64,000 nucleotides of DNA from Coriobacteriaceae bacterium (GTDB taxonomy: Bacteria; Actinomycetota; Coriobacteriia; Coriobacteriales; Coriobacteriaceae). Shown one piece after another: positions 6,860-48,967 of the stretch. The first letter of the stretch is position 1. Every line of letters begins with the position of its first letter. Position numbers and translations under genes: made by a program. The DNA lies in NCBI GenBank assembly GCA_030525945.1, contig JAUNDT010000003.1:101319-165318 (forward strand), in the 5' to 3' direction. Below the pieces are notes generated by a model. The model did no database searches and was not told the DNA's origin. It worked only from the letters and a program-made list of their open reading frames with translations.

Positions 6860-6976
6860 GAACCGCGTATTAGGTCCGGTGCTCGGGCAGTCCTACTCAC
6901 GTTGAAGGCCACGTTTGGTGGCCTTCTGTTCGTGCGGAACTTGCGGCGGGCCGTATGTACGGCGCTGCAGGCTACG
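6860..6976 (+). repeat. Conserved-core hairpin element, copy 1 (decayed arms)
   Basis: The core at about 6880-6945 carries TGCTCGGGCAG, CTCACG, a perfect inner hairpin GAAGGCCAC/GTGGCCTTC, and TTCGTGCGGAA. The same core occurs at 45874-45940 on this strand and at 8679-8737 on the opposite strand. Unlike those copies, the flanking arms here pair only weakly, so this looks like an older copy. It fills the gap between two convergent genes (the AarF-like gene and the methyltransferase gene). Confidence 0.65.
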
Positions 6977-8648: not shown

Positions 8649-8767
8649 GCTGGGATGCGGGGCTCCCCGAGATTTTTGTAGATTCCGCACGAACAGAAGC
8701 GCCGGTGGCGCTTCGTCGTGAGCAGGACCTGACCGAGCAAAAATCTCGGGGAGCCCCGCATCCCAGC
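8649..8767 (-). repeat. Conserved-core hairpin element with perfect 30-bp arms, copy F
   Basis: The arms at 8649-8678 (starting GCTGGGATGCGGGG) and 8738-8767 are perfect 30-base inverted repeats. Between them, read on the minus strand, lies the core TGCTCGGTCAGG, CTCACG, inner hairpin GAAGCGCCA/GGCGCTTC, then TTCGTGCGGAA, matching copies at 6.9 and 45.9 kb. The outer arms differ completely from those at 45.8 kb. It sits just downstream of metG in the 328-bp gap before the GNAT gene. It may also act as a terminator for metG readthrough, but no T-tract is present. Confidence 0.75.
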
Positions 8768-8774
8768 GGCTCGG

Positions 8775-10940
8775 TTAGTACTGGCTCGGGTGCTTCTCGA
8801 AGAAGTCGGTGCGCGGAGGCAGCGGCTTGATGGCGTGCTCGCCGGCATGCTCGCCCAGCACCTCCACCAGTTCGTCACACGTCTTGAAGATGTGCTTCCA
8901 GGAGAAGAACACCTCCGGCGCGATGGCGAAGTGCTCGCAGATCTTCTCGCAGCCCGCAGGTACGATGCCGTGCATGAGCACGGTCGCCACGCGCAGCTCG
9001 TGGAACGCGTCGACGAGCGCCTGGGTCATGAGCACGTCCGCCTCGGCACCTTCTGCATTCTTAGCTGCCTTGGAGGCATCGCTCCAGCGCTTGTTGGCCG
9101 TGCGCAGGAACTCGTCGCACACACCCAGCGCATGATGAAGCTCAAAGGTGCTCATGGCCTGCTCGAACGCGAGGATCGCCTGCTCGGCCTCGGCCATGAC
9201 GGCTTCGCTCGGGGCACCTGCGGGAATGCATCCGGTGCGATAGGGGGCCTCGTCGCCCTCCTTGATGGCCACGCCGTAGAAAGCCGAGCGCGCTAGGCGG
9301 TTGAAAACGCCGGTGAGCAGCGCGCCCTCCTTGAGCGCCGGGTCGATCACGCGTTTGTCGTCGCGTGCGAGCACGGGGTTGCCGTCCTTGTCCTTGCCGG
9401 TCTCGCGCAGGTCGAAGGCCTTGGGACTAAAGCTCACGGGTTTTTCGCCCAAACCGAGCGAGAGCCAGTGCGCACGCAGCTGCTCGGGCGTGTAATGATC
9501 GAGCATCTCGTGCGCGAGCGGCGGCGGCGTCTGGGAGCTGGAGCTCGCCTTCTTGCCCATGTAGAGGATGTGGTAGTTGGCAGCCACGCAGGACTGCTGC
9601 ATGTTCCAGTCGAGCGCCTCCCACATGCCGGACTGCGCGATGCAGTAGAAGTAGATGTTGTCCTGGCCGATGAATTGGTACGCGCGGGCGTCCTCGCTCG
9701 CCCACCAGTCGCGCCAGTCGAGACTCGCGTGCGTGTAGGTGGGCTCGTCCATGATCGTGGCCGGGGCATCGCCTACGAGCTTTGCGTCGGCAACGGCGGC
9801 GTCGGCGAGCTCGGAGGCGTTCGCGCCCTCGTGCTCGAGCTTGGCGGCGTCGCGCGCGAGCACGGCGCGGGTGAAGCTGATGGGCGCCCACAGGCTCTCG
9901 GGCCACACCCAGGCGGTGAGGTCGCGGCAGCCCTCGACCTCGGGCAGCGGCACGCCCCACTCGACATTGCCCGAGATGCGGAACGGCACGAGCGCCTTGC
10001 CGGAGCGGAAGCGCACGCCGGCGCGGTTGAGGACCTCGTGGGCCTCGTCGCGCTCGCGCCAGGTGGGGAAGACCACCGTGAAGGAGCCCTTGTTGCCCTC
10101 TGCCTCGATGACCTCGTGGCTGGGCAGCTCGGCACGAACCGCCTCGAATTCGTCGCGGAACTTCACCTGGATGAACAGGCGCGGCGAGTCGAGCCACTCC
10201 TGCATGGTCTTGGAGACCACGGAGCGCACCGTGGGGTCGGCGGCCAGGCGCTCGGTGTACTCGCGCATGAACTCGGTGTAGGAGGGCAGGTCGAAGTAGA
10301 GGTTGTCGACGGGCACGAGCTCGGGCGTCTCGCCGGTGAGCGCGCTCTTGGGGGCGATGAGCTCCTCGGGCTCGAACTGATGGCCCAGGTCGCATTCATC
10401 CGCGTACGCCTTCTCGGACTTGCAACCCTGGATGGGGCAGCGGCCGAGTACCTGGCGGCCGTTTAGGAACTGCTTGGCAGCCGGGTCGTAGAACTGCTTG
10501 GTGCTCATCTTGGTGAGCTTGCCCTGCTCGTGCAGTCGCTCCACGATCTCGGCGGTCATACGCTCGTGGATATGCACGGCGGGTTCGAGGGCGCTGCCGG
10601 CGTACAGGTCGCAGGAAACGCCAAAGCTTGCGAGGTCGCGCTCCTGGCTGTCGTGGTTCTCGCGCACGTAGTCGGAGATGTGCTTGGTGTAGCCGTCCGT
10701 CTCGCGGCGCTTGCGGAAACCCTCCATGATGGGGGAGCCGTAGCAGTCGGTGCCCGAGACGAAGATCACGTTCTCGCGGCCCAGGCGGTCGCGCAGGAAG
10801 CGCGCGTAGAAGTCGGCGGGCACGAACACGCCGCCCACATGGCCGAAGTGCAGGCCCTTGTTGCCGTAGGGCATGCCGGCGGTGACGACGGCGCGACGGG
10901 GCCAGGTGGGTCGGTCGGCGCGGCTGAGCTTCTGTGCCAT
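8775..10940 (-). CDS. metG: Methionine--tRNA ligase
   Basis: A 721-residue class I synthetase that charges tRNA-Met. The HIGH-type motif appears as LHFGHVGG after MPYGNKG near the N-terminus. A zinc-knuckle region (CPIQGCKSEKAYADECDLG) lies near residue 145. The KMSKS-type loop is unusual: at the expected place after ILYMG the sequence is KKASSSSQT. The ATG at 10940 is preceded by AAGGAG; an in-frame ATG at 10994 would overlap the divergent promoter region and is rejected. No C-terminal tRNA-binding (Trbp111-like) domain is seen. It diverges from queH with a 74-bp gap that must hold both promoters. Confidence 0.93.
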   Translation of the reverse strand: MAQKLSRADRPTWPRRAVVTAGMPYGNKGLHFGHVGGVFVPADFYARFLRDRLGRENVIFVSGTDCYGSPIMEGFRKRRETDGYTKHISDYVRENHDSQERDLASFGVSCDLYAGSALEPAVHIHERMTAEIVERLHEQGKLTKMSTKQFYDPAAKQFLNGRQVLGRCPIQGCKSEKAYADECDLGHQFEPEELIAPKSALTGETPELVPVDNLYFDLPSYTEFMREYTERLAADPTVRSVVSKTMQEWLDSPRLFIQVKFRDEFEAVRAELPSHEVIEAEGNKGSFTVVFPTWRERDEAHEVLNRAGVRFRSGKALVPFRISGNVEWGVPLPEVEGCRDLTAWVWPESLWAPISFTRAVLARDAAKLEHEGANASELADAAVADAKLVGDAPATIMDEPTYTHASLDWRDWWASEDARAYQFIGQDNIYFYCIAQSGMWEALDWNMQQSCVAANYHILYMGKKASSSSQTPPPLAHEMLDHYTPEQLRAHWLSLGLGEKPVSFSPKAFDLRETGKDKDGNPVLARDDKRVIDPALKEGALLTGVFNRLARSAFYGVAIKEGDEAPYRTGCIPAGAPSEAVMAEAEQAILAFEQAMSTFELHHALGVCDEFLRTANKRWSDASKAAKNAEGAEADVLMTQALVDAFHELRVATVLMHGIVPAGCEKICEHFAIAPEVFFSWKHIFKTCDELVEVLGEHAGEHAIKPLPPRTDFFEKHPSQY

Positions 10941-11014
10941 GAACAGCTCCTTTTCCAGTATCATTTGTATGCGTAACCTTGAATTATCGCACATCGGGAT
11001 AGGGAAATGCTGCC

Positions 11015-11624: not shown

Positions 11625-11853
11625 CAAACTACCCTTGCATTGGGGGTGGTTTTGCCCTGCCCGAAAGAAACCTCCCCTATATTGGGGGTGGTTTGGCTCG
11701 AGTTTTTGCCTCACTGCCGTTTCGGCGCTCTGGAATCCTGCGGTTTTGCTGTGCTCCGCGCGGGTTCGCAGCCTATCTGCGCACAAACCACCCCCAATAT
11801 AGGGGACTTTTTCTTGGGAGGGTGCCAAACCACCCCCAATGCGCGGTAGTTTT
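11625..11853. repeat. Nested double inverted repeat between queH and queA
   Basis: Outer arms (about 11625-11654 and 11823-11853) read AAACTACC, a two-to-three base difference, then GCATTGGGGGTGGTTT and its complement. Inner arms at 11674-11695 and 11784-11805 are perfect 22-base inverted repeats starting CCCCTATATTGGGGGTGG. The motif TTGGGGGTGGTTT thus occurs four times, twice on each strand. The central 88 bases show no match to the other elements here. This fills most of the 392-bp gap, and no gene is seen in it. Confidence 0.8.
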
Positions 11854-17193: not shown

Positions 17194-17285
17194 GGCCCTC
17201 CCTCCCCGGGCGGGTGCGCCACTGCGCGATTTCTGAGCGAAGCGAAGCTGAGCGCAGGGACGCACCCGCCCGGGGAGGGAGGGCC
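17194..17285. repeat. Inverted repeat with shared loop, copy G
   Basis: Perfect 25-base arms (17194-17218, starting GGCCCTCCCTCCCC, and 17261-17285) enclose GCGATTTCTGAGCG followed by AAGCGAAGCTGAGCGC. The same loop is found at 19454-19520 inside different arms. Together the two copies bracket the metal ATPase gene. Copy G lies 15 bases beyond that gene's stop codon. Confidence 0.75.
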
Positions 17286-20409: not shown

Positions 20410-20549
20410 GCAAATACGCAAATGCGCGGATAAACTCCGATGAACGGAGATCCGTGCAATGTTGTGTAGATAAAACCGCAGGTAATTGGCTCGTGTGTTT
20501 TTGCGATACTCCGGCAGGTCAGATTTTATCCGCGCATTTGCGTATTTGC
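20410..20549. repeat. Perfect 25-bp inverted repeat, 90-base interior
   Basis: Arms at 20410-20434 (starting GCAAATACGCAAATGCGCGG) and 20525-20549 are exact complements. The interior contains a small CTCCG/CGGAG hairpin and no recognisable gene. It occupies the centre of the 605-bp gap between the metal operon and the exonuclease gene. Nothing else in this window shares its arms. The rest of the gap beyond the promoter shows no feature I can name. Confidence 0.75.
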
Positions 20550-25057: not shown

Positions 25058-25100
25058 AGAAAAGAGGGTCAAGGGACGGCGTCCCTTGACCCTCTTTTCT
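25058..25100. terminator. 20-bp perfect terminator hairpin
   Basis: AGAAAAGAGGGTCAAGGGAC pairs with its exact complement across the loop GGC. The A/T-rich ends give TTTTCT on the + side and an equal run on the minus side, so it can stop transcription both ways. It follows the phosphatase gene by 83 bases. Confidence 0.8.
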
Positions 25101-36437: not shown

Positions 36438-36486
36438 ACCCAAAATGCGTCATTTAGGGTCTGACCCTCAATGACGCATTTTGGGT
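36438..36486. repeat. AATGCGTCATTTAGGGTC palindrome, copy 1
   Basis: ACCCAAAATGCGTCATTTAG followed by GGT and the complement forms a 49-base near-perfect palindrome with a CT centre and one mismatch. The same palindrome is at 48929-48967. It lies between the copA start and the helicase gene (310-bp gap). It can form a hairpin on either strand. Confidence 0.85.
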
Positions 36487-45374: not shown

Positions 45375-45422
45375 GCATTGCGGCGCCTGGGGCACGCGGT
45401 AGGTGGTATGGGGGAGAAAGGA

Positions 45423-45805
45423 CGCAAAGCGGGCCGATAAGCCGGGTTCTGTCGTGGACGATCATTTATCTTGCCTGCACGTCGCCGTGCAGTTCCTCGC
45501 ACGCTACCCGAGCGCGGACCGGGCCGGCCCATGGCGCTCCTATTCGCGCTTGCTCCGGAAGGGGCTTGCCAAGCCACCGTGTTGCCACGGCGCTGGTGGT
45601 CTCTTACACCACCGTTTCAGCTTTTCTCTTTACGCGCGAGGACCATAAAGGCCCAAGCACGCAGGTGGGAGTCTTCTTTTCTGCGGCGCTTTCCGTCGGG
45701 TTGCCCCGCCTGGCCGTTAACCAGCTTCCTGCCCTGTGGAGCCCGGACTTTCCTCACGCCCGCTGCGGATGCGGTGGGTCGCGCGATCGCCTGGCCCGCT
45801 TTGCG
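45423..45805 (-). ncRNA. rnpB: RNase P RNA
   Basis: The catalytic RNA that matures tRNA 5' ends, here about 383 nt. Near the 5' end (minus strand) the universal GAGGAAAGTCCGGGCTCC occurs, and near the 3' end ACAGAACCCGGCTTAT. The terminal helix P1 is CGCAAAGCGGGCC pairing with GGCCCGCTTTGCG, which fixes both ends. The layout is type A. The promoter ends seven bases before the 5' end. A long inverted-repeat element abuts it upstream. Confidence 0.96.
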
Positions 45806-45812
45806 AGGAGGT

Positions 45813-45840
45813 ATTGTACCATGAGGCAGGGGTTTTGCCA
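45813..45840 (-). promoter_or_regulatory. rnpB promoter, -35 inside a repeat arm
   Basis: Read leftward, TGGCAA (about 45835-45840) and TACAAT (45813-45818) are 16 bases apart, with transcription expected at the first base of P1. The -35 hexamer belongs to the left arm of the inverted-repeat element that starts at 45832. Confidence 0.6.
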
Positions 45841-45983
45841 GCCTGCGCACCGGCTGCCCCGCATATCACCCCGTGCTCAGGCAGTCCTGGCTCGCACGGA
45901 GGCCACATTAAGTGGCCGTCCGGCTCGTGCGGAACTGCGCGCGGGACGATATGCGGGGCAGCCGGTGCGCAGGCTGGCAAAAC
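45832..45983 (+). repeat. Conserved-core hairpin element with perfect 36-bp arms, copy 2
   Basis: Arms at 45832-45867 (starting GTTTTGCCAGCCTGCGCACC) and 45948-45983 are perfect 36-base complements. The core between them carries TGCTCAGGCAG, GCACGG, an inner hairpin GGCCAC/GTGGCC, and CTCGTGCGGAACT, matching copies at 6.9 kb and (reversed) 8.7 kb. All three inner hairpins differ in sequence yet pair. It lies between rnpB and yigZ. Confidence 0.85.
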
Positions 45984-46758: not shown

Positions 46759-46828
46759 GCGAATGTGTACACTCGCGACCTCAAAAGCTCAATTTTGGCC
46801 GTTTCGTGCCGCGAGTGTACACATTGGC
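46759..46828. repeat. GTGTACAC-centred inverted repeat, copy B
   Basis: GCGAATGTGTACACTCGCG (46759-46777) and its complement at 46810-46828 (one mismatch) are separated by 32 bases. The same arms with the same 32-base spacing recur at 50369-50438. Each arm is itself partly palindromic at GTGTACAC. Confidence 0.8.
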
Positions 46829-48928: not shown

Positions 48929-48967
48929 AAATGCGTCATTTAGGGTCTGACCCTAAATGACGCATTT
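48929..48967. repeat. AATGCGTCATTTAGGGTC palindrome, copy 2
   Basis: AAATGCGTCATTTAGGGTCT and the complement form a perfect 39-base palindrome. It is the same sequence as at 36438-36486. It directly follows R2 and precedes the nitroreductase promoter region. Confidence 0.88.

Follow-up and report, generated by a model that had tools for sequence, protein, structure and literature searches.

Quasipalindrome correction, i.e. template switching between the arms of an inverted repeat, has been described in E. coli and yeast (PMC7202029, PMC8604942), and arm homogenisation and spacer inversion are among its reported products (PMC8604942). In REP and REPIN elements, which are mobilised by RAYT (PMC3116915, PMC3733652), the copies have in common their stem sequence as well as a GTAG or CGTC tag, and they usually outnumber by far the repeats studied here; one of these papers (PMC3733652) does not mention Collinsella, Eggerthella or Slackia. 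Long perfect inverted repeats are also maintained in the mitochondrial genomes of Nematomorpha (PMC6649704), and Rfam-type cis-regulatory RNAs present a conserved core with covarying stems. The repeats of Collinsella and related gut bacteria (Coriobacteriia) that we analysed resemble each of these systems in part. As in quasipalindrome template switching, the repeats can form hairpins, their arms are made identical, several bases change at once and the spacer can be inverted. However, the known template-switch cases are scattered short repeats, whereas here an order-wide dispersed family has a conserved spacer and its arms are replaced wholesale at fixed sites. Like REPs and REPINs, these repeats are extragenic, dispersed, palindromic and likely recognised as folded DNA, but what their copies have in common is limited to an internal motif and the loop region: as a family, they have neither a common stem sequence nor the GTAG or CGTC tag at the stem foot. 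The palindromes of Nematomorpha lie in coding mitochondrial DNA and have no common core. Finally, some copies are apparently located in the 5' UTRs of tRNA-synthetase genes, as for Rfam-type regulatory RNAs, from which the family differs by its few wobble intermediates, the lack of a fixed sense and the lack of any Rfam match.

The window, i.e. the whole stretch of 64 kb that was analysed, belongs to a Collinsella-like genome of 1.88 Mb in 23 contigs. A sequence-only reading of this window had described three copies of an intergenic element with a common core, two of them enclosed by perfect arms of 36 and 30 bases and the third with decayed arms. This observation is confirmed and stands out: the three cores are all matched by a covariance model (Table 1), no fourth core is present in the window (next match with an E of 0.22), both arm pairs are exact reverse complements and copy 1 keeps mere remnants of its arms. 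No target-site duplication was evident by eye at these copies. Copy 3 is located upstream of the presumed rnpB promoter, and the other genes near the window copies are of the UPF0029/YigZ, ABC1 kinase and RlmA methyltransferase types.

Table 1. Location of the repeats, their arms and neighbouring genes (window positions unless a locus or genome is given).
Feature	Position	Strand	Support or remark
Copy 1, conserved core, arms decayed	6881-6940	+	model R1 62.2 bits, E 3e-13; arm score 4
Copy 2, conserved core, type B ends (..TTTTT/core/ATCTAC..)	8682-8738	-	model R1 59.1 bits, E 2e-12
Copy 2, metG-distal arm, 30 bp	8649-8678	-	exact reverse complement of 8738-8767
Copy 2, metG-side arm, 7 bases downstream of metG stop codon	8738-8767	-	exact reverse complement of 8649-8678
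metG, class I methionyl-type tRNA synthetase	8775-10994	-	adjoins copy 2
RNase P RNA gene	45422-45802	-	neighbour of copy 3
Copy 3, conserved core	45875-45935	+	model R1 64.9 bits, E 7e-14
Copy 3, left arm, 36 bp, facing RNase P RNA gene	45832-45867	+	exact reverse complement of 45948-45983
Copy 3, right arm, 36 bp	45948-45983	+	exact reverse complement of 45832-45867
Copy 3, apical covarying hairpin GGCCAC ATTAA GTGGCC	45901-45917	+	sequence; family covariation
Seven other long inverted repeats	11673-11806, 17194-17285, 20410-20549, 25058-25100, 36438-36486, 46762-46825, 48929-48967
Inverted cores	def-fmt in G012; gap upstream of gene reading as HPr; thrB 5' in G021
Facing pairs of elements (G060:C1)	313959/314173, 731387/731663, 1555123/1555413, 1636121/1636412
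Second-family copies, mostly just after thrB	L164:2499-2627, L290:2400-2482, L301:1237-1345		unrelated perfect arms
Further second-family loci	L160, L167, L184, L269, L274, L282, L285, L297

A strict two-block pattern found 15 copies in the source genome and its reversed control none. With the covariance model, built from 40 distinct cores, the count rises to 34 copies in the source genome, and near-complete aerofaciens-like genomes contain 22-32 copies each. Most other Collinsella possess 0-13 copies, with two exceptions (G035, 23 copies; G029, 28 copies). Across the class, matches were obtained in 98 of the 248 genomes, nearly all within one order and including Collinsella, Ellagibacter, Adlercreutzia and Slackia, so the further copies anticipated in related genomes do exist. 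All copies share an intergenic core of about 58 bases. It reads, in order, GCTC.G.CAG(G)TCCTG, one of three left modules, the apical hairpin (8-10 bp), the right module that matches the left one, and TGCGGAA. The TCC/GGA internal stem pairs without exception across the core alignment, the loop types are group-specific, and at the stem foot one strand carries GTAGAT in type B and GCGAGT in type A (76 of 99 copies). In Rfam, at gathering and relaxed thresholds, only generic hairpin matches were obtained, none above the gathering threshold, and no account of Collinsella or Coriobacteriia repeats was found in the literature searched; this order-wide repeat superfamily thus has no match in either. 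In low-copy genomes, where a neighbour gene common to the elements was sought as a clue to a trans-acting factor, none was detected. Several copies adjoin tRNA-synthetase genes, namely leuS, metG and valS (L372, window 8775, L232). In one genome, elements also occur in pairs: two elements of opposite orientation share a single gap, at a distance of about 215-290 bp, with their cores facing each other.

The arms, of 20-50 bp on either side of the core, are specific to the locus. Arm sharing among the different loci of one genome shows no excess over shuffles, which bears out the earlier claim of unrelated arms from locus to locus and excludes that they are common by descent; for the same reason, a copying of arms between loci was rejected. 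An origin of the arms elsewhere in the genome was likewise discarded: a genome-wide search with a mid-arm 22-mer of copy 3, allowing up to 3 mismatches, returned the two arms and no third copy.

Then, we compared the same sites between species, where the arms are sometimes alike and sometimes wholly different. Among the orthologous pairs whose two flanks are each at least 90% identical (264 pairs), arm identity falls below 60% in 56, as compared with a median of 47% and a 95th percentile of 63% for random arms; this proportion is a description rather than a test because the pairs are not independent. Elements in these 56 pairs nevertheless display only about 0.5 mismatch each. At the gyrA/tRNA-Ile site, an identical core between flanks of 99% and 90% identity is enclosed by two different 34-bp arm pairs, both without mismatch; at another orthologous site, arms of 49 and 35 bp are each free of mismatches. 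At valS, GGCGTGTCCGCCTGCTTGGTTTTC arms in seven genomes and GGGGAGGAATGTAGGCCCG arms in others lie between the same flanks. Several unrelated arm pairs per site were found at thrB 5', thrB 3', gyrA/tRNA-Ile and def-fmt. Between G060 and G025, most elements have 0-2 within-arm mismatches despite a strong divergence of arms between the two genomes, and several pairs have their outermost and innermost arm bases in common but a middle that is replaced on both sides. At the rnpB site, two related species without palindrome (L293 and L295) have an alignable outer left arm and no detectable right arm, which suggests that the right arm is a copy, or that it was lost in these species; the degenerate core remnant of L300 favours some loss at this site. 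The thrB 3' element has an outer right strand that mirrors the region of the thrB stop codon.

Other forms of the repeat were identified. Six hybrids combine the left arm of one allele with the right arm of another (L150, L385, L401, L402, G060:2234372 and G060:1470396), and three loci have an inverted core between flanks that are unchanged (Table 1). Core-less palindromes with the same GGGGAGGAATGTAGGCCCG arms occur at valS in six genomes, and one genome has a core-less palindrome with the same arms at thrB 3'. Moreover, multi-base changes are mirrored between near-perfect arms. Arm replacement, inverted cores, hybrids and core-less palindromes bear the mark of inter-arm template switching or conversion, and both the mirrored multi-base changes in near-perfect arms and the spacer inversion expected from template switching are present. 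Arms that remain perfectly matched while being almost completely rewritten between species point to DNA copying between arms; neither a conserved RNA nor a transposon of the ordinary kind would be expected to behave in this way.

The most economical mechanism, which we regard as probable, is that of a REP/MITE-like core lying in locus-specific palindromes homogenised by inter-arm copying. Each site would be a palindromic DNA locus with two layers, a common structured core dispersed between genes like a REP or a MITE, and arms belonging to the locus. One arm would serve again and again as the template of the other, through polymerase template switching in an extruded hairpin or through inter-arm gene conversion. 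The arms would stay perfectly complementary because of this repeated copying, and a change in one arm would therefore be either lost or mirrored in the other. The spacer, i.e. the core, would sometimes be inverted, and alleles would recombine through the common core, producing hybrid arms open to re-homogenisation. We infer template switching as the enzymatic route, and a putative protein recognising the folded-DNA core would spread or retain it.

Such palindromes would be able to persist in the absence of the hairpin nuclease SbcCD. An SbcD model gave no match over the cut-off in 45 Collinsella genomes (two weak partial matches), while 13 of 14 control genomes gave a signal, 8 of them above the cut-off. 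Collinsella therefore seems to lack SbcCD, as judged on the absence of a recognisable SbcD. In addition, the window contains 9 inverted repeats per 64 kb at an arm score of 16, vs. 2.35 per 64 kb over 790 kb of assorted other bacteria; simulated sequence came near zero, with at most one of that strength per window. These genomes, in which SbcCD seems to be missing, offer tens of natural replicates each for measuring the rewriting of inverted repeats.

Alternatively, the core might be a mobile element inserting at the tip of pre-existing terminator-like palindromes, the arms being its target sites. The core-less valS palindromes, the many other long palindromes of the source genome and the swapping of core modules within unchanged arms (L178 vs. 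L194/L206) would fit such insertions. This reading is nonetheless unlikely: an identical core is found with different arms at several sites (G060 1215983 and 1759705), the core-less thrB 3' case looks by its sequence like a deletion derivative, and none of the sites compared showed an intact palindrome cleanly interrupted by a core.

We then considered whether the element is a structured RNA (leader or 3' UTR element), with stems selected on the transcript and arms acting as a basal helix. Compensatory change in the inner hairpin, proposed from the three window copies, holds across the family: 79 two-sided pair changes were counted vs. 24.5 +/- 3.5 in shuffles, 95.7% of cells are paired vs. 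80.0% in shuffles, and the covariation score is far above background (0.399, vs. at most 0.118 for slid structures). Besides these covarying helices, an RNA would account for the fixed places near valS, leuS, metG, lepA and thrB, for the valS element located in an inferred 5' UTR in the aerofaciens-like clade (promoter judged by eye), and for the outer stem at thrB 3', which pairs with the stop-codon region and covaries. However, hardly any one-sided or wobble intermediates were found. Two-sided and one-sided changes number 79 and 2 in the inner hairpin, vs. 74 and 64 in RNase P RNA from the same genus (Fisher test, P = 7e-14, indicative only, as the RNase P control comprises 16 orthologous Collinsella loci with a predicted structure and the repeat cores are paralogous). 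Only 4 of 628 inner-hairpin pairs are non-Watson-Crick, and the mid-arm mismatches of type A (19 G-T, 16 A-C) are not mostly G-U. Wobble strand bias by core orientation alone is not informative, since the copies occur in either direction, and was set aside in favour of the totals and the RNase P control. Furthermore, elements are found between convergent, divergent and co-directional genes, in both orientations (gene calls are crude), one window copy lies upstream of a presumed promoter, the core is inverted at three loci and no Rfam family corresponds. The few one-sided or wobble changes and the two orientations argue for a process or a selection acting on DNA, and the RNA reading is also unlikely, although the sequences are compatible with some copies, e.g. 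that of valS, acting as RNA as well. The sequence-only reading had left two alternatives, selection for RNA structure or a process by which inverted repeats are created or repaired; hybrids, inversions, core-less palindromes and mirrored changes fit the latter, and the former is not favoured. Strong two-sided covariation usually serves as proof that an RNA helix is functional; these results suggest that it can also be produced or preserved at the DNA level, in which case a lack of wobble intermediates tells the two levels apart.

Inter-arm copying does not account for every observation. Copying cannot invent sequence, yet arms differ in length and by whole mid-arm segments, and a donor of new arm sequence was found neither in the source genome nor at other loci. 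The third window copy, which lost its arms while the other two are perfect, also counts against it. Some arm replacements may be old alleles introgressed by homologous recombination, and thrB alleles do diverge where homologous recombination tracts end; arms may also evolve fast as only their complementarity is kept. The elements at thrB 5' and 3' have long been retained in much of the genus, which suggests selection, a factor that is not needed if copying alone operates. A dedicated arm-writing system, in which a protein on the folded TCC/GGA core would lay a new arm and mirror it in the opposite one, giving every locus its own perfect palindrome around the common core, seems quite improbable. 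As for a plain MITE or REP family with arms as common terminal repeats, the dispersed intergenic copies, about 30 per genome, and the group-specific loops recall one, but it is hardly tenable, being ruled out, as the sequence-only reading had argued for the copying of a single MITE, by the absence of family-wide terminal inverted repeats, by arms unrelated between copies and by their change at fixed sites.

Finally, two other core families have the architecture of the first and a motif akin to its own. The second family reads GTCCTCG..hairpin..CTGCGGAAT. Its core is located about 20-25 nt past the thrB stop codon, with unrelated arms, in 28 of 29 oriented Collinsella loci (one core-less derivative included; the exception is G018). 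A third family (ATTCTCGC..GCGAAACT) lies between def and fmt (L383-L404); TTC/GAA replaces TCC/GGA there, a C-G pair of the motif having become T-A on both sides. This site has five arm alleles, and the gap is missing in G000, G005 and G029.

The seven other long inverted repeats of the window have arm scores of 16-25, unrelated arms and no core of the first family. Those starting at 36438 and 48929 share AAATGCGTCATT, and the loop of that at 17194 loosely resembles the second core family. Palindromes resembling other repeat families were also observed (L149:1665-1745, L255:1222-1302, and L353 upstream of an HPr-like gene), e.g. with AGGGACAGGTTTATTTTGGT arms or with TAAGTTGCGGTGAAATAGGGACTG. 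In addition, L287:3163-3259 contains a near-perfect 46-bp palindrome with a 5-base loop.
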